DNA of 64,000 nucleotides from NCBI GenBank assembly GCA_017543335.1, contig JAFYGE010000042.1:51960-115959 (forward strand). Reading direction: 5' to 3'. The DNA comes from Ruminococcus sp. GTDB lineage: Bacteria; Bacillota; Clostridia; Oscillospirales; Ruminococcaceae. The number at the start of each line of letters is the position of its first letter. The first letter of the stretch is position 1. The position numbers were made by a program, and so were the translations under genes. Of the stretch, positions 21,993 to 32,899 are shown piece by piece. Under the pieces are notes generated by a model. The model ran no database searches. It saw nothing but the letters and a program-made list of their open reading frames with translations, and was not told the DNA's origin.

Positions 21993-22442
21993 ATGGAAGT
22001 AATTATCTGGGCAATAGCTTTTGTTATCTTCGTGATCGCAGAAATAGCAACAGTTCAGCTTGTCTCGATCTGGTTCGCAGTAGGTGCGATAATTACATTA
22101 ATATTATCCGCACTATTCAACCTCGGTCTTGCCGCACAGCTCGGAGTGTTCATACTCTCATCCGGAGCTTTTCTGCTGATAACACTTCCTCTTGTCAAAA
22201 AATACCGCAAAGCCGGTTTTATCCCGACTAACGCAAGTCTGGATATCGGCAAGTCGGCTAAGGTCATAGAGGAGATAAGCATTGACAAAGGCACAGGAAG
22301 AGTAACTCTCAGTGGGGTCGATTGGAGAGCTGTTCCGGAAAAAGAAAATGACATTATTCCGGAAGGAAGTATTGTCACGGTCAAGGATGTTCAAGGTGCA
22401 AAACTCGTAGTTTCACTGAAAAACGAAACTAAAAACAACTAA
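21993..22442 (+). CDS. NfeD-like membrane protein
   Basis: A 149-residue short-form NfeD protein: about three membrane helices in the first 70 residues (IIWAIAFVIFVIAEIATVQL, then IWFAVGAIITLILSAL and an AAQLGVFILSSGAFLLI segment), then a small beta-barrel (OB-like) C-terminal domain about 80-145 (GKSAKVIEEISIDKGTGRV, GVDWRAV). NfeD proteins partner SPFH proteins in membrane microdomains. The partner gene follows 29 bases downstream, so the two form the usual operon. An AGGGGG ribosome site precedes the ATG. Confidence 0.9.
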   Translation: MEVIIWAIAFVIFVIAEIATVQLVSIWFAVGAIITLILSALFNLGLAAQLGVFILSSGAFLLITLPLVKKYRKAGFIPTNASLDIGKSAKVIEEISIDKGTGRVTLSGVDWRAVPEKENDIIPEGSIVTVKDVQGAKLVVSLKNETKNN

Positions 22443-22471
22443 TTTTTTCTATATTTCAGGAGGTAAATACC

Positions 22472-23443
22472 ATGGAAGCAGCAGAACTTATTATTTTAGG
22501 ACTTATTTTATTGTTATTATTTATATTCATCAGAGGTTTCAGGATCGTTCCTCAGGCTCAGGTATACGTTATAGAGCGTTTCGGTTCGTTCAGATGTGAA
22601 TGGCAGACTGGTATCCACTACCTTTGCCCGTTTATCGAGCGTATAGCAAGCAAAGTCTCACTTAAAGAAAAAGTCGTTGACTTTAAGCCTCAGCCGGTTA
22701 TCACTAAAGATAACGTTACAATGCAGATCGATACAGTCGTATTCTATAAGATCACTGACGCTAAACAGTACACTTACGGCGTTGAAAGACCTCTTCAGGC
22801 TATCGAGAATCTTTCAGCTACAACACTCCGTAACATAATCGGTGAACTTGAACTCGATGCTACTCTTACTTCAAGAGACGTTATAAACTCAAAAATCACA
22901 TCTATCCTTGATATGGCTACAGACCGCTGGGGTATCAAGGTTGAGCGAGTAGAGCTCAAGAATATCCTCCCTCCTCGTGAGATCCAGGACGCTATGGAAA
23001 AGCAGATGAAGGCTGAGCGTGAAAGACGTGAAAAGATCCTTCAGGCTGAGGGTGACAAGAAGTCACAGATACTCGTTGCAGAAGGTGAAAAGGAGTCTCA
23101 GATACTCCGTGCTCAGGCTAAGAAAGAAGCTCAGATACTTGAAGCAGAGGCTGAAAAGCAGGCTCTTATCCTCAAGGCTGACGCTGTAAGAGAGCAGAAG
23201 ATACTTGAAGCTACCGGTGAAGCTCAGGCTATTGAAATGGTACAGCAGGCTGTTGCAAACAGTATCGTAAAACTCAACAGTGCTAATCCTAACGAGAAAG
23301 TCATCCAGCTCAAATCACTCGAATCCTTTGCAAAGGCTGCTGACGGAAAAGCTACAAAGATCATTATCCCAAGTGAGATACAGGGTCTTGCAGGTCTCGC
23401 AGCTGGACTTAAAGGCATCGTAGAAAAAGACAATCAGAACTAA
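22472..23443 (+). CDS. Stomatin/paraslipin-type SPFH protein
   Basis: A 323-residue membrane-anchored SPFH (stomatin-prohibitin-flotillin) protein. One N-terminal helix (about residues 4-22), then the SPFH domain (FRIVPQAQVYVIERFGSF onward to about 180) and a long Glu/Ala/Lys coiled coil with repeated QILxAEGEK-type units (about 180-265). Such proteins form rings or scaffolds at the inner membrane together with NfeD. An excellent AGGAGG site precedes the ATG. It ends just before a small hairpin and the R1 repeat. Client proteins are unknown. Confidence 0.92.
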   Translation: MEAAELIILGLILLLLFIFIRGFRIVPQAQVYVIERFGSFRCEWQTGIHYLCPFIERIASKVSLKEKVVDFKPQPVITKDNVTMQIDTVVFYKITDAKQYTYGVERPLQAIENLSATTLRNIIGELELDATLTSRDVINSKITSILDMATDRWGIKVERVELKNILPPREIQDAMEKQMKAERERREKILQAEGDKKSQILVAEGEKESQILRAQAKKEAQILEAEAEKQALILKADAVREQKILEATGEAQAIEMVQQAVANSIVKLNSANPNEKVIQLKSLESFAKAADGKATKIIIPSEIQGLAGLAAGLKGIVEKDNQN

Positions 23444-23730: not shown

Positions 23731-23740
23731 ATGATACTCG

Positions 23741-23776
23741 CTCCCTGTATCCGTTTACAGGGAGTTTATTTTTTCT
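23741..23776 (+). terminator. Intrinsic terminator before the TIR operon
   Basis: CTCCCTGTA pairs with TACAGGGAG over a short loop and is followed by TTTATTTTTT. It insulates the TIR operon from the nfeD-SPFH transcript. Confidence 0.8.
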
Positions 23777-23793
23777 AAAAATGATAAAAAATA

Positions 23794-23822
23794 TTGAAAA
23801 ATATGTACGATTATGGTATAAT
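23794..23822 (+). promoter_or_regulatory. Promoter of the TIR-SPFH operon
   Basis: TTGAAA and TATAAT with 17-bp spacing and an extended -10 (TGG before it), about 40 bases upstream of the first ATG. It lies directly after a terminator, so the four-gene unit is probably transcribed independently. Confidence 0.82.
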
Positions 23823-23861
23823 AGTATAAATCTTAAAAAATAAACGGGAAAGAGGTACAAT

Positions 23862-25418
23862 ATGTCTGTTTTCAAATGTAAAATGTGCGGAGGTACACTG
23901 AACGCCGATGCCGGAAAAAATATATGTCAGTGTGAATATTGTGGAACTCTCCAGACCCTTCCCCATACAAGAGATGAAATAATCGCAAATCTCTTTAATC
24001 GTGCAAACGCTCTGAGAATAAAAAGTGACTTCGATAAAGCTCTGGAGGTATACGAAAGTATAGTCGAGAAAACTCCCGATGACCCTGAGGCTTACTGGGG
24101 TATGGTACTCTGTAAATTCGGTATAGAATACGTCGATGACCCTGCGACCGGAAATAAGATCCCTACCTGCCACAGAACTCTGCTTGAATCTGTGCTGACC
24201 GATGTCGACTACGCATCTGCCTTGCAGTATGCAGAGCCGCAGTCCCGTGAGCTTTATGAATACGAAGCCGCTGAAATAGACCGCTTGCAGAAAGAGATAA
24301 TTAATATAGTCCGTTCAGAAGAGCCTTTCGATGTTTTCATCTGCTACAAGGAAAAGGATGAAAACGGCAAACGTACTAAGGATAGTGTCATCGCCAATGA
24401 CATATATTATCAGCTGAACCAAGAGGGCTTCAAGACCTTCTATGCGGCTATAACTCTTGAAGATAAGCTCGGAAAAGAGTACGAACCTTACATATTCGCC
24501 GCACTCCAGACCGCAAAGGTGATGCTCGTTATAGGAACTCAGCCGGAATATTTCAATGCTCCGTGGGTGAAAAATGAGTGGAGCAGATACCTTAAAATAA
24601 TAAAAGCTGACAGAAATAAGCTCCTCATTCCGTGCTATAAGGATATGGACGCTTATGACCTTCCTGAGGAATTTTCACATTTGCAGGCTCAGGATATGTC
24701 CAAAATCGGCTTCATGAACGACGTTATAAGAGGTATCAAAAAGCTCGTATCCGCTGACAATAATATCAGCGAACGCATTGCAGTCCCAAAACGCAGGTCT
24801 TCTTCCTTTGACGAGGATAAAATGCTGAAACGAATAAATATTTTCCTCGGCGACCATGACTTTGAAAGTGCTGAGGAATACTGCGAAACTATCCTTGATA
24901 ATGACCCCGAATGTGCTCAGGCTTATTTGGCTAAATTCCTTGCAGAATACAGCTGCTCTCAGCCGAGCGAGATATACTCTGAAAAAAATATCGATTTCTT
25001 TGCCAATAAGTACATACAAGGCTTTGGCACTCATATTGATGATAACGAGCTGTTTACCACCCGCATGGGCTATATCCTCGGAAACAATATGAAAAATGCT
25101 CTTATTTTCTCAAAAGGCAACGAGCATACAGAGATAGCTCATATCAATGACGGTATCATAATCATGGTTAGAAATGCAATAGGTCAGATCGAAAAACAAC
25201 AATTAGACTATGAATATCAGGTCGCTTCTAACGCTCTTGAACAGCATAAAGAGGAAGAACGTGCACTAAAAAAGAAAAAGCGAAAAAAGAAACTGTTCTT
25301 ATTTGCTTTTATCTGCTTCATTCTGATGCTCATTTTTGCAGGAAGCGATTCATCAAGCAGTGCAGGTTTTTCATTGATCCTTTTCTTCATCTTGTTAATT
25401 ATGGGATTTTTAGCCTAA
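23862..25418 (+). CDS. Zinc-ribbon/TIR-domain membrane protein 1
   Basis: A 518-residue protein. A zinc ribbon opens it (Cys6, Cys9, Cys24, Cys27), then a TPR-like helical stretch (about 40-75) and a segment shared with the next gene (GIEYVDDP and PTCHRT). The TIR domain starts at FDVFICYK (residue 156) and runs to about 290; Glu200 in TLEDKLGKEYEP sits four residues before a Gly, the place I recall for the catalytic Glu of TIR NADases. A second helical repeat follows, then a Lys-rich stretch and two membrane helices (about 475-518), so the TIR is probably cytosolic and tethered. NAD cleavage is inference. Function unknown. Confidence 0.85.
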   Translation: MSVFKCKMCGGTLNADAGKNICQCEYCGTLQTLPHTRDEIIANLFNRANALRIKSDFDKALEVYESIVEKTPDDPEAYWGMVLCKFGIEYVDDPATGNKIPTCHRTLLESVLTDVDYASALQYAEPQSRELYEYEAAEIDRLQKEIINIVRSEEPFDVFICYKEKDENGKRTKDSVIANDIYYQLNQEGFKTFYAAITLEDKLGKEYEPYIFAALQTAKVMLVIGTQPEYFNAPWVKNEWSRYLKIIKADRNKLLIPCYKDMDAYDLPEEFSHLQAQDMSKIGFMNDVIRGIKKLVSADNNISERIAVPKRRSSSFDEDKMLKRINIFLGDHDFESAEEYCETILDNDPECAQAYLAKFLAEYSCSQPSEIYSEKNIDFFANKYIQGFGTHIDDNELFTTRMGYILGNNMKNALIFSKGNEHTEIAHINDGIIIMVRNAIGQIEKQQLDYEYQVASNALEQHKEEERALKKKKRKKKLFLFAFICFILMLIFAGSDSSSSAGFSLILFFILLIMGFLA

Positions 25419-25439
25419 AACACAGCTGTGGAGGTAAAA

Positions 25440-27560
25440 ATGGCTGTATATAAATGTAAAATGTGCGGAGGTGCTCTGGAGATCGGCGAGAATATGACTG
25501 TTTGCCGATGCAGCTACTGCGGTACAGAGCAGACTCTGCCTAAACTTGATAATGAAACCCGGAATCGTCTTTTCGACCGTGCTAACTATTACCGCCGCAG
25601 CAGCGACTTCGACCGTGCGGCTGCGGTATATGAGGATATATTGTCGGAAGCTCCTCAGGAAGCTGAAGCTCACTGGGGACTCTGCCTGTGCAACTATGGT
25701 ATAGAATATGTCCGTGACCCACGCTCCGGAAAAATGCTCCCGACCTGTCACCGTACTCAGTTCCGCTCGATACTGGAAGACAGCTCTTTTCTGCTCGCAC
25801 TAAAGTATTCTGACGGTGCTGCTCAGTCTCTGTACAGACATGAGGCAGCCTACATAGACAAGGTGCAGAAACGCATACTCTCAATATCCGGTCAGGAATC
25901 GCCTTTCGACATATTCATATGCTATAAGGAAACTGAGTCATACGGCGAGCGTACTGCCGCCAGCGTTGAGGCTCAGGAGATATATGACGAACTTACAGAA
26001 AGAGGCTATAAAGTCTTTTTCTCACGAATAACACTCGAAGATAAACTTGGTCAGGAATATGAACCTTACATCTTTGCTGCTTTGCAGAGTGCGGAGGTCA
26101 TGCTCGTTGTAGGCAATAAACCGGATCAGTTCACATCTGTATGGGTCAAAAATGAATGGAGCCGCTTCCTGAGCCTTATGTCTCAGGGACAGCATAAATA
26201 CATCATCCCCTGCTACAAGGACATGAATCCATATGATCTTCCGGAAGAGCTCATCTCCTTTCAGGCTCAGGACCTTTCAAAAATGGGTGCTGTGCAGGAT
26301 CTCGTAAGAGGCGTCGAAAAGCTGATAGGCGGAGGTCACGCCAATACCGCTGTATCAGCTGCAAATCCGGATTCTCTGCTCGACAGAGCTTACCTATTTC
26401 TCGAAGACAAAGATTGGAAAAATGCAGATGTTTACTGCGAAAAGGCTCTCGATGCCGACCCAAGAAACTCGAAAGCTTATCTCGGAAAACTTTTAGCTTC
26501 ACTGAAAAAATCTTCCGTAAAAGAACTATCTACATTAAATATCAAGATCAGTAAATATGATAATTTCCAGAAAGCTCTGAGATTTGCAGACAGCTCCGAG
26601 AAAAAAGCTCTTGAAGAGCTGGATATTCAGTGCAGACTTAACCGTGCGGCTGAGTCAATAGACAACTGCTATTTCCCTTCAGATGCAGAAAAACTGATAA
26701 GCGACTTGAAGGAACTCGGCAATTTCGGGAACGCTGCCGCACTCATTACTGCTGCCGAACGCAAGTGGGATGAGCTAAGGCAGAATTCTATAATGGATGC
26801 CGAGCGAATGATAGATCCTACCAGAAAAGGAAAGGATATATTAGCCGGACTTAAACTCCTTGATGAAGTAAAGGATATGCCGGAAGCTGAGATACTCCGT
26901 GAAAAGGCAGTCGGTATGCTTGAAAGCCACTATCAGAAAGCCTGTGCCGCAATGGAAAGCGGTGACAACAAAAAAGCTGTGGAGTACTTCCGCTGGCTCG
27001 ATAACTATAAGGACTCGTTAAGAAAAGGCATAGAATGTGAGGAAAAACTGCAAAAACAGCTCACTGCGGAGAGGATCGCCGCTGAGGAAGAAGAAAGACT
27101 CCGCATGGAAGCTGAGGCAATAGAACGCAGCCGACAACTTCAGGCAACTCTAAAGTCCAAGAGCAAAAGCAGAGTAACTTTCACGATCGTTTTTGTATTG
27201 ATAGCAATTTTTTCTGTAATGACCGTATTAAGATGCTACTCTATAGCTTGGGAGCACGAAATGGTAATGGCAGAAAATTACAGATTAAAAACTCTCATAG
27301 CTTCACCGCTGTTCTGCTTCGCTATGATATATATGCAGATGAGACATGACGGAAGTTTGTCCAAAAACTCGCTGTTTGCTTTCAGACCTATAGCCGTACT
27401 TATCGCTGTATTGACAACATTCTTTATGAATCAGGCAGGATATAACGCTATATTGCTGCTAATGGTCATTGCTCTGCACGTCGGTGCAATGATAGCAGCC
27501 TACAGATTCGGAAGCATAGCTCATAAATACTACTACGGTGAAAATAACAACAACTTATAA
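25440..27560 (+). CDS. Zinc-ribbon/TIR-domain membrane protein 2
   Basis: A 706-residue paralogue of the preceding gene, with the same zinc ribbon (Cys6, Cys9, Cys24, Cys27), TPR-like stretch, GIEYVRDP and PTCHRT segment and TIR domain (about 155-290, Glu200 in TLEDKLGQEYEP). It then diverges: a long helical region (about 310-565) with a Glu-rich coil, and about four membrane helices near the C-terminus instead of two. ATG 25440 is chosen because GGAGG is seven bases upstream; an in-frame GTG at 25428 is less likely. It follows the first TIR gene by 21 bases and precedes the SPFH gene by 14, so all are one operon. Confidence 0.85.
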   Translation: MAVYKCKMCGGALEIGENMTVCRCSYCGTEQTLPKLDNETRNRLFDRANYYRRSSDFDRAAAVYEDILSEAPQEAEAHWGLCLCNYGIEYVRDPRSGKMLPTCHRTQFRSILEDSSFLLALKYSDGAAQSLYRHEAAYIDKVQKRILSISGQESPFDIFICYKETESYGERTAASVEAQEIYDELTERGYKVFFSRITLEDKLGQEYEPYIFAALQSAEVMLVVGNKPDQFTSVWVKNEWSRFLSLMSQGQHKYIIPCYKDMNPYDLPEELISFQAQDLSKMGAVQDLVRGVEKLIGGGHANTAVSAANPDSLLDRAYLFLEDKDWKNADVYCEKALDADPRNSKAYLGKLLASLKKSSVKELSTLNIKISKYDNFQKALRFADSSEKKALEELDIQCRLNRAAESIDNCYFPSDAEKLISDLKELGNFGNAAALITAAERKWDELRQNSIMDAERMIDPTRKGKDILAGLKLLDEVKDMPEAEILREKAVGMLESHYQKACAAMESGDNKKAVEYFRWLDNYKDSLRKGIECEEKLQKQLTAERIAAEEEERLRMEAEAIERSRQLQATLKSKSKSRVTFTIVFVLIAIFSVMTVLRCYSIAWEHEMVMAENYRLKTLIASPLFCFAMIYMQMRHDGSLSKNSLFAFRPIAVLIAVLTTFFMNQAGYNAILLLMVIALHVGAMIAAYRFGSIAHKYYYGENNNNL

Positions 27561-27574
27561 AGGAGGAAATATAT

Positions 27575-29038
27575 ATGTTCAACACCCATAAGGATGAACC
27601 TAAGACACCAGATCACGGTCTTGCCAGCGTTATTGTGTACGAGGGAGATAACCAGACCCTTGTGTACAAACACCCGATACAGAACTTCAATCTTGGTTCA
27701 CAGCTTATAGTACATGAATCTCAGGAAGCTGTATTCTTCCGTGACGGTCAGGCTCTTGACCTGTTCGGTCCCGGCAGACATACTCTTGAGACACAGAACC
27801 TTCCGATAATCAACAAAGCATATAAACTCCCGACAAATGCCGATACTCCATTCCACTGCGAAGTTTACTACATAAACAAGACTGTACAGATGGGTATAAA
27901 ATGGGGAACAGATTCAAAGGTTAGATTTATTGAGCCTGAATCCGGACTTCCCATTGAAATAGGTGCTTGCGGACAGTTCAATCTGCGTGTGAACGATGCA
28001 AGAAAGCTCCTCATAAAACTTGTCGGTACGGCAAGCGAGTTCACTCAGGCTGACGTTGTTGACGGAAACTTTGGTCTTAAACCTACTATAGCTAAATTCA
28101 AGGCTATGATAATCACCAAAGTCAAAAGCAGTCTCGCACGTATCATCAAGGACAACGGCATAAATATCCTTGAAATAGACGAGCATCTTGATACTATCTC
28201 CGGAAGTCTCTGCACCGTTCTTAACGATAATATCAAAGAATACGGCCTCATTATGCCGGAGTTCTTTGTCGAGACTATCATTACTCCGGACGACGACCCT
28301 AATTACAGAAGATTAAAACAGCAGCGTGCTGACCTCTACCTGAAAGTACGTCAGGAAGAGATACTCAAAGCTGAGGCTGAAAAAGCTCGTGAACGTCAGG
28401 CTGTTGAAGCTGAGACTGCTGCACAGCTCAAAGTCATTGGTGCTAAGGGAGAAGCTGACGCTCTCGTAGTAAAGGCAGCTGCTGAGGCTGAGGAAATGAG
28501 AATGAAAGGCTTCACCTACCGTGAGCAGACTGCCCGTGAAGTCGGTCTGGGAGCTGTTCAGAATATGGGCGGCTCAGGCGGAGGCTCTGTAGGCGATATC
28601 GCCGGTCTCGGAGTTGCTCTCGGTGCTATGGGCGGAGTTATGGGCATGACTAAAAATGCTATGGACCCGATGCTGAATATAAACTCTCCGAGCGGACTTC
28701 CTGCCGGCGGCTGGGTATGCTCATGCGGAAACACTGTATATTCCGGAGGATTCTGCAATATATGCGGAAATAAGCGTCCGGACACAGTAGGAAGCTGGGA
28801 TTGCAGCTGCGGAAACAGAGGTATCATCGGAAACTTCTGCAATGTCTGCGGAGCTAAAAGACCTGCTGCTCAGACTGCATGGGACTGCTCATGCGGAAAC
28901 AAGGGAATAATCGGAAACTTCTGCACTAACTGCGGAGCTAAAAAGCCTGATTCCAACGATGTATGGGATTGTTCCTGCGGTGAAAAAGGAAATACAGGCA
29001 ATTTCTGCCGTAACTGCGGAAAGAAGAAGGGAGAATGA
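27575..29038 (+). CDS. SPFH-domain protein with four tandem zinc ribbons
   Basis: A 487-residue soluble or peripheral protein. An SPFH domain of the 'virion core protein'/YdjI type spans about residues 20-250, followed by a Glu/Ala-rich coiled coil (about 250-315) and a Gly/Met-rich stretch (about 325-365). The C-terminus holds four 28-residue zinc ribbons, each WxCSCGN...GxFCxxCGxK. B. subtilis YdjI, a relative, acts in a membrane-stress complex; the same here is inference. No membrane helix, so it probably docks to membrane partners. The zinc ribbons echo those of the two upstream TIR proteins. AGGAGG precedes the ATG. Confidence 0.85.
   Translation: MFNTHKDEPKTPDHGLASVIVYEGDNQTLVYKHPIQNFNLGSQLIVHESQEAVFFRDGQALDLFGPGRHTLETQNLPIINKAYKLPTNADTPFHCEVYYINKTVQMGIKWGTDSKVRFIEPESGLPIEIGACGQFNLRVNDARKLLIKLVGTASEFTQADVVDGNFGLKPTIAKFKAMIITKVKSSLARIIKDNGINILEIDEHLDTISGSLCTVLNDNIKEYGLIMPEFFVETIITPDDDPNYRRLKQQRADLYLKVRQEEILKAEAEKARERQAVEAETAAQLKVIGAKGEADALVVKAAAEAEEMRMKGFTYREQTAREVGLGAVQNMGGSGGGSVGDIAGLGVALGAMGGVMGMTKNAMDPMLNINSPSGLPAGGWVCSCGNTVYSGGFCNICGNKRPDTVGSWDCSCGNRGIIGNFCNVCGAKRPAAQTAWDCSCGNKGIIGNFCTNCGAKKPDSNDVWDCSCGEKGNTGNFCRNCGKKKGE
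28712..29035 (+). repeat. 84-base tandem repeat encoding zinc ribbons (3.9 copies)
   Basis: In-frame units at 28712, 28796, 28880 and 28964, each opening with TGG and encoding two CxC/CxxC pairs. Units 2 and 3 are the most alike. The last unit is cut short by the stop. This suggests recent amplification of one zinc-ribbon unit. Confidence 0.85.
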
Positions 29039-29040
29039 TC

Positions 29041-29727
29041 ATGAAAAAGGTTAGACCTCATGTTGTTGCTATACTCGTTGTATTGGCATTTGCTTTTACT
29101 GCGATCGCTTTTCTCGCACCATTTGAACACGGCTTCAATTTCATAGTAGCTTATGCAGCAGGAATGCTCGCTATTTTACTTCAGATACCGGTATTCAAAC
29201 TTGCTTATCCGCCTGAAACTCCGCTGAAGAGTCAGGTACTCGGCTACCCTATTCACAGAGTCGGAATACTCTACATGATAATCCAGACTATACTCAGCTT
29301 GGTTATCTTTAGTGTAGGCGACAGTGCTCCGCCACAGTTTACCATTTTGCTATGCATATTAGTACTTGCAGGTGCTCTCGTGCTCGGACTTACTGCTAAA
29401 ATGGCAAGAGAGGCTATCTCAAATATGGAGACAGTGAAAAACGCTGACACCAGACTTATGAAGTCTCTCGCACTCAGAGCTGAGGCTCTCACTACACGTA
29501 CATCTGACCCTATGCTCGCTCAGGAGATAAAAAAGCTCGCTGAAAATATCTCATACAGCGACCCTGTAAGCAGTACTGCTATTGCTGAACAGGAATTCAA
29601 GCTCGCTGAACTCTTCGGACAGCTTGAATCTGCTGTAGTGGGTAATAATCCGGGAGCTATCGACCTTTGCAGAAACGTTAACATCGCTCTTGAAGACAGA
29701 AATATCGCCTGCAAAGCAAATAAATAA
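29041..29727 (+). CDS. Four-helix membrane protein of the TIR operon
   Basis: A 228-residue integral membrane protein I do not recognise. Helices lie at about 8-27, 33-50, 72-90 and 100-118, and a cytosolic, helical, charged C-terminal half (about 120-228) follows, including a EQEFKLAELFGQLESAV helix. It is the last gene of the operon, and a first in-frame ATG at 29035 overlaps the SPFH stop; I prefer ATG 29041, which is seven bases from the GGGAG site. It may be the membrane anchor for the SPFH/zinc-ribbon assembly, judged only from its place in the operon. Confidence 0.75.
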   Translation: MKKVRPHVVAILVVLAFAFTAIAFLAPFEHGFNFIVAYAAGMLAILLQIPVFKLAYPPETPLKSQVLGYPIHRVGILYMIIQTILSLVIFSVGDSAPPQFTILLCILVLAGALVLGLTAKMAREAISNMETVKNADTRLMKSLALRAEALTTRTSDPMLAQEIKKLAENISYSDPVSSTAIAEQEFKLAELFGQLESAVVGNNPGAIDLCRNVNIALEDRNIACKANK

Positions 29728-29945: not shown

Positions 29946-29975
29946 CAGGGAAGCGTGATGCTTCCCTGTTTTTTC
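29946..29975 (+). terminator. Intrinsic terminator after R2 copy 1
   Basis: CAGGGAAGC pairs with GCTTCCCTG over GTGAT and is followed by six T. It separates the TIR operon and R2 from the GH9 gene. Confidence 0.85.
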
Positions 29976-30106: not shown

Positions 30107-30148
30107 ATGGTAAATATTAATGGAGCTTATACAGGAGGTATTTTTTAT

Positions 30149-32899
30149 ATGAGTAAATTTAGGCAGCTCAGAAATAAAAGTCTGTCTGCAATGGCAGCTT
30201 TGACTCTTACTGCAAGCATCATTGTTCCGGCAGGTGCTCAGCTTATCCCTCTGAAAGCTGATGCCGGTCAGCAGCTTGGTCAGACTAACTTCGATGAAGG
30301 TGTCGGACTTCCGTGGCATATCGTTGAATCAGCTCCGGCTGAAATGGAGTTCGAGCTAACTGACGGAAAATATAAAGTGAAAATAGTTAAACCAGGTGGA
30401 GCTTCTGCCGGCGGTGAGGACAGATGGGACTGTCAGTTCCGCCATAGAGGTCTGAAAATCGTTTCCGGACATAAATATGAGGTGTCCTATGAGATAACTC
30501 CTACCCAGAGCGGTAAGTACTACACAAAGATCGGTGACGCTGAAAATAATGAAGTCTGGCATAATGAAATGGACGACAACGGTCCTGACCTCGGCTCGAC
30601 ATGGGAACCTATACCGATAAATGCTAACGAGACAAAAAAGGTAACTCACACATTCACCGCTTCACAATCTATTGATGTTGCTGAGTGGGCTTTCCACCTC
30701 GGCGGTGACGGTCAGTATACTCCCGGCGGATGCTTCCCGGCAGGTACTGAGATAACTTTCGACAATATGTCGCTGAAAGACCTCACAAGTGATGAAAATA
30801 ACTACAAAGCTGCTCCGAAGTGGAAACGCTCTCCTATCATGATAAATCAGGTCGGATATTTTGAAAACAGAGCTAAAAGAGCTACTCTCGTGAGCGACAG
30901 CAGCTCCGGTATCGACTTCGATATAATCAACGAGGACGGCGACAAGGTCTATTCCGGTACTTCCAAACCTTTCGGCGAGGATAAGGACTCCGAGGACGAA
31001 GTTCATATCATCGACTTCACCGATTTTAACGACAAGGGCACTTTCTATATTGAGACCGAAGACGGCGACAGAAGCTACGAATTCACTATCGGCGACAACG
31101 AGCTTTACTCCGGTATTCTCTATAATTCGCTAAATTATTTCTATCAGAACCGCAGCGGAATAGAAATAGAAAGCAAATATATATCTTCCGGCGACACTTC
31201 AAAACTCGCAAGAGCTGCCGGACACCCTAACGATTCCGCTGAAATAATGTCAGACTGGGAAAAAACTGACAGCACCGGAAAGTCCATTGATGTTACCGGT
31301 GGTTGGTACGATGCAGGAGATCACGGAAAATACGTCGTAAACGGCGGATTCTCGCTCTGGATGCTGCAAAATCAGTACGAAACTGCACTAAAATACGGCT
31401 TTGATGATGTTTATGCCGACGGAACAATGCTCATACCTGAAAATAACAATAAAGCTCCTGACCTCCTTGACGAAGCTCGCTGGGAAATGGAATGGATGCT
31501 CAAAATGATAGTCGAAGACGGCGAATACAAGGGAATGGCTTACCACAAAGCTCATGACGAAAAATGGACCGGTCTTGCTATTGCTCCGGCTGATGACCAG
31601 ATGCGTAGAATAGTCAAGCCGCCGTCAACAGCTGCTACTCTCAATCTTGCTGCCTGTGCAGCTCAGGCTTCCAGACTCTGGCATAAGTACGACGAGGACT
31701 TCGCAGACAAGTGTCTCGATGCTGCAATAGAAGCCTATGAAGCTGCTAAAAAAAATCCGGACGTTTACGCTCCGCTCGACAGCTCAACAGGCGGCGGTGC
31801 TTACGGCGATGACAATGTAGATGATGAATTCTACTGGGCAGCCTGCGAGCTATTCCTCACTACCGGCGACGACAGCTATTATGAGGATATGAAAGATTCC
31901 GATTTCTTCCTTGAACTCCCGACTTCACTCGGCGGCGGCGAGAGCGTCGATACCGTAGGAAGCTTCGACTGGGGAAATACAGCGGCTCTTGGTACTATGA
32001 GCCTTTCTCTCGACGAAAAACAGGTCCCAGACTCTGACTATAAGAAATTAAAGGAGAATATCATCTCTGCCGGAGATCATTACATAGAAATTGAAGACGA
32101 GCAGGGCTACGGTGTGCCATACGGTCAGAGCCAGCTCAGCTACAATGACAGCGATAAGGGCTATATATGGGGCTCAAATTCACTCGTAGCCGACAATGCT
32201 GTTGTACTCGCTTATGCTTATCTTCTCTCAGACGATGATGCTTACCTCGACGGTGCTATTGGCGGCATGGACTACCTCCTCGGAAGAAATGCAAATGAGT
32301 ACTCCTATGTTACAGGATACGGTTATCATGCTGTAGAGAATCCTCACCACCGCTACTGGTCACATCAGGTAGATGAAACATTCCCTGAAGCTCCTGCGGG
32401 AGTAATGTCCGGCGGACCGAATTCCGGTATGCAGGACCCTTGGGTAAAGGGCTCAGGTTGGAAAAAAGGCGAGATAGCTCCGCAGAAGTGCTATATGGAC
32501 CACATTGAAGCTTGGTCTGTAAACGAGTGTACTATCAACTGGAATGCTTCACTCGCATGGCTCTCAGCATTTACTGCTCAGGAAAACGGCGGTATACAGA
32601 TAGGTGTAACAAGTACTACTGATAAGAGTGCTTTTGCAGACCTACAGCCTGCCGAAGAAACTGAGGAGATAACTGAGGAAAAAGAGGACGAGACTAAAGA
32701 GTCTATCCGCAAAAGCACTAAAACAAAGTCCGATGACGACGATGAAGTAAAAACTACCAAGAAAAACAAGGACAACGATGATGACGATGATGAGGACAGC
32801 AACCTCGGTATGATAGCTATTATAGCCGGAGCTGCGGTCGTTGGTCTTATTTCTATCGAATTGTTCGTCTATAAGATAATCAAGCTTAAAAAGAAGTAA
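30149..32899 (+). CDS. Membrane-anchored GH9 cellulase with N-terminal CBM-like domain
   Basis: A 916-residue secreted endoglucanase-type enzyme. Signal peptide (about 1-35, ending near PAGAQ); a CBM4-type domain (about 45-220); an Ig-like N-domain (about 230-325, SPIMINQVGYF); and the GH9 catalytic domain (about 330-815). Catalytic-region motifs: GGWYDAGDHGKYVVNGG (near 384), ENPHHRYWSH (near 732) and NECTINWNASLAW with the acid Glu (near 790). Then an acidic, repetitive linker and one membrane helix (about 885-908) followed by KLKKK. No dockerin and no CBM37, so the enzyme is probably held on the cell surface. AGGAGG precedes ATG 30149. It is bracketed by inverted R2 repeats. Confidence 0.93.
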   Translation: MSKFRQLRNKSLSAMAALTLTASIIVPAGAQLIPLKADAGQQLGQTNFDEGVGLPWHIVESAPAEMEFELTDGKYKVKIVKPGGASAGGEDRWDCQFRHRGLKIVSGHKYEVSYEITPTQSGKYYTKIGDAENNEVWHNEMDDNGPDLGSTWEPIPINANETKKVTHTFTASQSIDVAEWAFHLGGDGQYTPGGCFPAGTEITFDNMSLKDLTSDENNYKAAPKWKRSPIMINQVGYFENRAKRATLVSDSSSGIDFDIINEDGDKVYSGTSKPFGEDKDSEDEVHIIDFTDFNDKGTFYIETEDGDRSYEFTIGDNELYSGILYNSLNYFYQNRSGIEIESKYISSGDTSKLARAAGHPNDSAEIMSDWEKTDSTGKSIDVTGGWYDAGDHGKYVVNGGFSLWMLQNQYETALKYGFDDVYADGTMLIPENNNKAPDLLDEARWEMEWMLKMIVEDGEYKGMAYHKAHDEKWTGLAIAPADDQMRRIVKPPSTAATLNLAACAAQASRLWHKYDEDFADKCLDAAIEAYEAAKKNPDVYAPLDSSTGGGAYGDDNVDDEFYWAACELFLTTGDDSYYEDMKDSDFFLELPTSLGGGESVDTVGSFDWGNTAALGTMSLSLDEKQVPDSDYKKLKENIISAGDHYIEIEDEQGYGVPYGQSQLSYNDSDKGYIWGSNSLVADNAVVLAYAYLLSDDDAYLDGAIGGMDYLLGRNANEYSYVTGYGYHAVENPHHRYWSHQVDETFPEAPAGVMSGGPNSGMQDPWVKGSGWKKGEIAPQKCYMDHIEAWSVNECTINWNASLAWLSAFTAQENGGIQIGVTSTTDKSAFADLQPAEETEEITEEKEDETKESIRKSTKTKSDDDDEVKTTKKNKDNDDDDDEDSNLGMIAIIAGAAVVGLISIELFVYKIIKLKKK

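Follow-up and report, generated by a model that had tools for sequence, protein, structure and literature searches.

In a 64,000-nucleotide (nt) stretch of Ruminococcus sp. DNA (the window; assembly GCA_017543335.1, contig JAFYGE010000042.1, positions 51,960–115,959, forward strand), four collinear open reading frames (ORFs), all on the + strand, form an operon, TIR1-TIR2-SPFH-4TM (window 23862–29727; 4TM, a protein with four transmembrane (TM) helices), and these four genes are a recurrent module well beyond this locus. Taken as a unit, the operon probably serves immunity or the response to stress, and on balance we favour the explanation that it is a membrane-scaffolded TIR alarm system. An earlier interpretation made from the letters alone (the sequence-only reading) is partly supported; beyond it, we observed exchangeable sensor-like C-termini of the TIR proteins, defence-type genes inside the operons of relatives, and versions of the module without TIR. 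The features of the operon are as follows.

23740..23765, + strand: terminator-like hairpin 5′ of the operon (hairpin search)
23794..23822, + strand: sigma-70-type promoter match, TTGAAA-17-TATAAT, the second hexamer preceded by TG (hexamer search)
23862..25418, + strand: TIR1, 518 amino acids (aa); zinc ribbon, TPR, TIR, helical repeats and long helix, two TM helices
TIR1 residues 478-496 and 500-518: TM helices (hydropathy)
24327..24716, + strand: TIR domain of TIR1, about residues 156-285; Glu208 codon 24483-24485
25440..27560, + strand: TIR2, 706 aa from ATG; zinc ribbon, TPR, TIR, TPRs, three TM helices
TIR2 residues 579-597, 645-663 and 670-688: TM helices (hydropathy)
25911..26285, + strand: TIR domain of TIR2, residues 158-282; Glu208 codon 26061-26063
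27575..29038, + strand: SPFH protein, 487 aa; Band_7_1 (YdjI-type), four C-terminal zinc ribbons
29035..29727, + strand: 4TM protein, 230 aa; four TM helices, helical tail with YSDPVS and RN..CK motifs
29946..29968, + strand: terminator-like hairpin 3′ of the operon (hairpin search)

Pfam matched TIR_2 in both TIR proteins (3.4e-11 and 1.4e-10; 44.1 and 42.1 bits, cut-off 28), together with TPRs, and Band_7_1 in the SPFH protein (1.2e-38; 133.3 bits, cut-off 24), whose C-terminal zinc ribbons appear in the translation as CxC/CxxC pairs (four, counted on the near-identical relative L033); the 4TM protein gave no significant Pfam match, and none of the four window proteins matched an NCBIfam model above cut-off. 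Hydropathy predicted two, three and four TM helices for TIR1, TIR2 and the 4TM protein, respectively. These results agree with the sequence-only reading, which had described two zinc ribbon-TPR-like-TIR-TM proteins, an SPFH protein with four zinc ribbons and a four-helix membrane protein with a helical tail, encoded by genes with gaps of 21 nt (TIR1/TIR2), 14 nt (TIR2/SPFH) and 2 nt (SPFH/4TM); the last figure holds when counted from the ATG at 29041. The promoter that it placed right after a terminator was likewise recovered: the match at 23794–23822 has 11 of 12 consensus positions, is the top of 14 sites (11.3 sites in shuffles) and lies 3′ of the hairpin at 23740–23765 (the search gave 7 hairpins vs. 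5.7 in shuffles), the overall number of promoter and hairpin sites being near chance.

Recurrence of the four-gene module

Among 60 relative genomes searched, one of them the genome of the window itself, 22 have the TIR family. When 84,980 species were scanned, each represented by a single genome, at least 592 pattern matches were returned, at least 559 of them relatives, the nearest named ones belonging to Ruminococcus sp. and R. flavefaciens; the best 80 of these relatives gave 79 loci, with an SPFH relative in 55 and a 4TM relative in 48, many of the loci ending at contig ends. Of 393 evenly sampled Clostridia genomes, 23 contained the TIR family, 32 the 4TM family and 17 both (Fisher p=1.8e-16, treating the TIR and 4TM samples as the same 393 genomes, as their genome labels match), and in 16 of the 23 TIR-bearing genomes the two lay no more than 10 kb apart on one contig by coordinates. 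From 120 loci, 114 remained after removal of 6 duplicates, and 113 contained a core gene: all three families in 63, TIR and SPFH in 9, TIR and 4TM in 1, TIR only in 32, and SPFH and 4TM without TIR in 8, several of which had been fetched for lacking TIR. Of 80 SPFH cases, 67 have the 4TM gene as the next gene, and 64 of these 67 leave no more than 20 nt between the two. The sequence-only reading would have been refuted if the four genes rarely co-occurred outside this locus; they recur.

Its pair of TIR genes is true of the window but is not a fixed trait: TIR-bearing loci contain one to five TIR ORFs (with pieces counted, 1 in 62, 2 in 22, 3 in 10, 4 in 8 and 5 in 3 of the 113 loci; none in 8), and no third TIR-family match was found in the window genome, which is 85.9% complete. 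The spread is patchy (11 of 200 genomes within one family). One 1.6 Mb genome, G037, has 10 TIR-family matches, some at contig ends, reflecting local expansion or fragmentation; loci L127 and L128 represent a divergent branch of the TIR family with other neighbours (trypsin-like by sequence in L127).

Constant TIR parts and exchangeable C-termini

The fold of the TIR domain matches known NADase TIRs, among other TIRs. In the filtered set of TIR-family sequences, E208, the first residue of helix 208-217, is present in 137/137, as are W235, N238, E239, W240 and R242. The sequence-only reading had noted Glu200 at the expected place of the catalytic glutamate; this residue is present in both window TIRs, but the family-invariant one is E208 (137/137 vs. 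127/137 for E200; E206, 75/137), so that an invariant acidic residue does exist. Fold and invariance together suggest that the TIR proteins probably cut nicotinamide adenine dinucleotide (NAD), with Glu208 as the candidate catalytic residue.

Neighbouring TIR proteins of the same locus share near-constant first 300 residues and carry swapped tails: identity over this part is 96.3% for L061_02 (ribbon end) and L061_03 (RCC1), 94.9% for L071_09 (TM at end) and L071_11 (DUF6273), 93.2% for L092_11 (three TMs) and L092_13 (one TM), 91.6% for L043_04 (RCC1) and L043_05 (other), and 89.2% for L124_10 (leucine-rich repeats, LRR) and L124_11 (DUF6273). Classified by motif and hydropathy, 135 TIR proteins comprised DUF6273 (40), several TM helices (28), one TM helix with other tail (23), no TM helix with other tail (19), RCC1 (19), C-terminal zinc ribbon (3) and LRR (3); these figures include one protein twice, and an InlB-like one is placed under RCC1. 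A Pfam scan of 94 tails gave DUF6273 in 36, RCC1 in 20 and InlB-like repeats, BspA-type LRR and MORN in one each, among the best 25 of 40 families. In phage receptor-binding proteins, others have modelled DUF6273 with a C-type lectin fold (PMC10743442). For each of the 56 scored proteins with a single TM helix, the flank N-terminal to the helix is the more basic; by this rule of thumb, the TIR domain is expected inside and the tail outside the cell. Besides TIR proteins, L113_07, by eye, is a 4TM protein followed by a further TM helix, TPR-like repeats and a DUF6273-like end, which links a sensor domain to the platform and suggests that a 4TM protein, too, may bear such a tail; long 4TM proteins of 549 and 547 aa are encoded at L113 5518-7167 and L114 5960-7603.

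A bolder and more tentative possibility is that the family constitutes receptor-type innate immunity in bacteria: surface and internal TIR receptors with swapped binding domains (C-type-lectin-like, beta-propeller, InlB-like and LRR) on a constant cytosolic zinc-ribbon/TPR/TIR part, an SPFH/4TM platform, and NAD-consuming co-effectors. If true, Toll-like receptors (TLRs) would have a functional counterpart in bacteria, independently reached or ancestral to the TIR-receptor idea; membrane TIRs with SPFH/4TM partners and exchangeable ectodomain-like tails would amount to receptor-like innate sensing in bacteria, and the question of bacterial Toll-type receptors becomes testable in gut Clostridia, e.g. 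R. flavefaciens. Excerpts of PMC7075850 and PMC8635717 give single-span LRR-TM-TIR as the TLR plan; L063_06 (TM at 536, LRR from 634) and L124_10 (TM at 564, InlB-like repeats, then LRR) resemble it, their single TM helix standing between an intracellular TIR and the LRR, and L128_03 has LRR behind three TM helices. The relatives differ from TLRs in that their order is reversed (TIR N-terminal), their LRR are of the BspA type, a zinc ribbon and TPRs are added, and SPFH/4TM are partners; the window TIRs, with two and three TM helices and no LRR, lack the TLR architecture, and common descent of the receptor plan is not claimed.

Several observations weigh against a receptor function. The LRR form is rare (3/135), and no TM helix was found in 17/40 DUF6273 and 11/19 RCC1 TIR proteins; thus not all sensors are external, and the same domains also serve intracellularly. 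The window TIRs have no sensor domain, just a hairpin in the membrane or an anchor of three helices; sensing may therefore fall here to the membrane itself or to the SPFH/4TM pair, and the idea is based on relatives rather than on the window TIRs.

The SPFH/4TM platform and its zinc-ribbon partners

YdjI of Bacillus subtilis, which its authors call likely soluble, binds PspA and depends on both YdjG and YdjH to get to the membrane (PMC8581546, in part). By analogy, the 4TM protein would be the natural membrane anchor of the SPFH protein here. Its model has four TM helices and a helical tail (predicted local distance difference test score, pLDDT, 92.1), and no match stood out against the PDB. 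A short form of 142-148 aa, consisting of the TM part only, stands beside TIR and SPFH genes in L121 (6767-7213), L122 (5355-5786) and L123 (6782-7210). In 19/51 SPFH relatives (including those of L041, L046, L055, L061, L065 and L107), six CxxC-type motifs form an additional array at the N-terminus; the window SPFH protein is without it.

A profile of the TIR N-terminal ribbon found 12 non-TIR proteins at E<1e-3 among 1675 proteins, all from module loci, and 9 of the 12 are encoded directly beside a core gene; the zinc ribbon therefore looks like a shared docking part, as the sequence-only reading proposed. In four TIR-less loci, the SPFH-4TM pair is followed by a DUF6591 protein with a similar zinc ribbon, matched by the profile at E 6e-9 to 2.4e-8. 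The third slot thus appears to be “ribbon plus something”, TIR being one filling.

Inserted genes, mechanism and alternatives

Between core genes lie 35 genes, of which 33 were scanned with Pfam after removal of two doubtful ORFs; nine are DUF2971 (4), SIR2_2, FRG, HEPN_RiboL-PSP, DUF4365 or TIR, families linked to defence, and PADLOC candidate families also match. Ten proteins chosen by eye included SIR2_2 four times (two below the Pfam cut-off; one, in L161, shares a contig with L064), GmrSD twice, FRG, RES, a weak HEPN (24.0 bits vs. 26.6) and one protein without a match. A 44-protein set held, among the best 25 of 69 families, SIR2_2 (3), RES (1), FRG (1), DUF2971 (1) and DUF6591 (4), besides a transposase and other ordinary families. 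When 20 cargo examples were used as queries against all locus genes, they matched 19/56 inner, 5/151 adjacent and 0/838 farther genes; as the queries themselves had come from the first two of these classes, 19/56 is too high a figure, and 0/838 is the useful part. Small ribbon-helix-helix-like proteins, recognized by eye just 5′ of core genes (L061_01, L065_04, L072_07, L165_07 and L068_08, the last one belonging to the 33 scanned genes), are possible operon regulators.

We propose that the SPFH and 4TM proteins would form a platform at the inner membrane face, as suggested by the need of YdjI for membrane partners, on which zinc-ribbon/TPR/TIR proteins may dock by their N-terminal ribbon. The TIR proteins would act as exchangeable sensor-effectors, with a constant first 300 residues and a variable C-terminus; this end provides membrane anchors, as in the two window proteins, or else sensor-like domains that lie on either side of the membrane. 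Clustering of the TIRs might be set off by phage or by damage to the envelope; clustered TIRs would cleave NAD+ via Glu208; and NAD+ depletion or an ADP-ribose signal might then stop the growth of affected cells, with the inserted effector-type genes of relatives (SIR2, FRG, DUF2971, RES and HEPN) perhaps adding to or receiving the signal. The sequence-only reading had left the choice between defence and envelope damage; the cargo of relatives would favour defence. The module, if it works in this way, would link SPFH platforms to NAD-based immunity.

Other data speak against an alarm system serving defence. The window operon has no cargo gene, and PADLOC gave a single weak match for its proteins (PDC-S66 to TIR1, 7.9e-4). 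The outer flanks are mostly housekeeping (best 25 of 114 and of 129 Pfam families) and PADLOC families number 143 for 110 far genes vs. 53 for 110 near genes; there is thus no defence-island signal outside the operon. The TIR family had no match in 72,556 plasmids or 50,697 phages and one in viral contigs, a near-absence that sets it apart from many mobile defence systems. TIRs often occur without SPFH/4TM, and since the TIR lies <3 kb from the stretch end in 12 of the 32 TIR-only loci, most of these are not explained by truncation. Finally, the glutamate of flax L6 aligns with E206 and not with E208, in a weak hidden Markov model alignment (E 0.7).

Housekeeping surroundings and the lack of plasmid or phage matches would also fit an envelope-stress module of the YdjI/Psp type, in which SPFH and 4TM stabilise or repair the membrane, the TIRs sense stress and either lower NAD+ or keep the complex together, and phages are not the target. 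The SPFH protein belongs to Band_7_1, a class that presumably includes YdjI; SPFH relatives in L053 and L101 end, by eye, in a SHOCT-like helix pair; and the TIR-less versions keep the SPFH-4TM pair with a DUF6591 zinc-ribbon protein. As in pspA-ydjGHI of B. subtilis, the SPFH protein is encoded with membrane proteins, and YdjG also seems to have a zinc ribbon, judging from its primer (PMC8581546, in part). Here, by contrast, TIR proteins occupy the zinc-ribbon partner slot, the 4TM protein has no Pfam family, and Pfam found no PspA family member among the four window proteins. With the defence-type inner cargo, the tail exchange within loci and the patchy distribution added, we regard this explanation as rather unlikely. 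Quite improbable, in our judgement, is that the TIRs are structural and only polymerise or hold the complex while the C-terminal domains bind cell-wall or surface ligands for adhesion or surface sensing: the six residues at 137/137 go beyond apparent scaffold need, and the SIR2, RES and TIR families, whose members are linked with NAD chemistry, occur among the inner genes. A chance neighbourhood of unrelated genes in Ruminococcus, for which no supporting point was found, has virtually no standing against the TIR/4TM co-occurrence test, the locus gene content and the SPFH-4TM adjacency.

Among known systems, Thoeris is similar in its TIR proteins and presumed NAD+ chemistry, and SIR2-like genes stand beside several relatives; yet Pfam, NCBIfam and PADLOC found no ThsA (SIR2-SLOG or equivalent) among the four proteins, the SPFH/4TM core differs, and the ThcB4 model of type III scored 18.4 and 23.1 bits (cut-off 220), in keeping with the sequence-only reading, which saw no match to Thoeris. 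Pfam found no APAZ or PIWI match (SPARTA TIR-APAZ/short Argonaute) and no DUF4062 match (Swarozyc) in the four window proteins. The shoulder of the major vault protein probably resembles the SPFH fold. Swarozyc (DUF4062; TEP1 in the vault) is alike in that a TIR-like NADase acts in antiphage defence and also occurs inside a protein shell, according to parts of PMC13174449. In the excerpted open-licence literature, neither SpbK (PMC12847820), the capsid-sensing system (PMC11312562) nor Swarozyc (PMC13174449) is described as a membrane receptor. Actinobacterial TIRs with TPRs are known (PMC7075850, in part). In Dictyostelium, RCC1 repeats and two TIR domains occur together in TirE, and an N-terminal TM helix tethers the NADase TIR of TirC, so that neither combination is unique to the window TIR family; these proteins are eukaryotic, and the excerpted text describes no zinc ribbon, SPFH or 4TM partner (PMC13142454).

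Directly 5′ of the operon (window 21993-23443) lie an NfeD-like gene and a Band_7 (stomatin-type) gene, which also stand directly 5′ of the module in L033-L036, the nearest Ruminococcus loci. On the 3′ side, window 30107-32899 encodes a large cellulase-like protein, probably of GH9, with a C-terminal hydrophobic helix.

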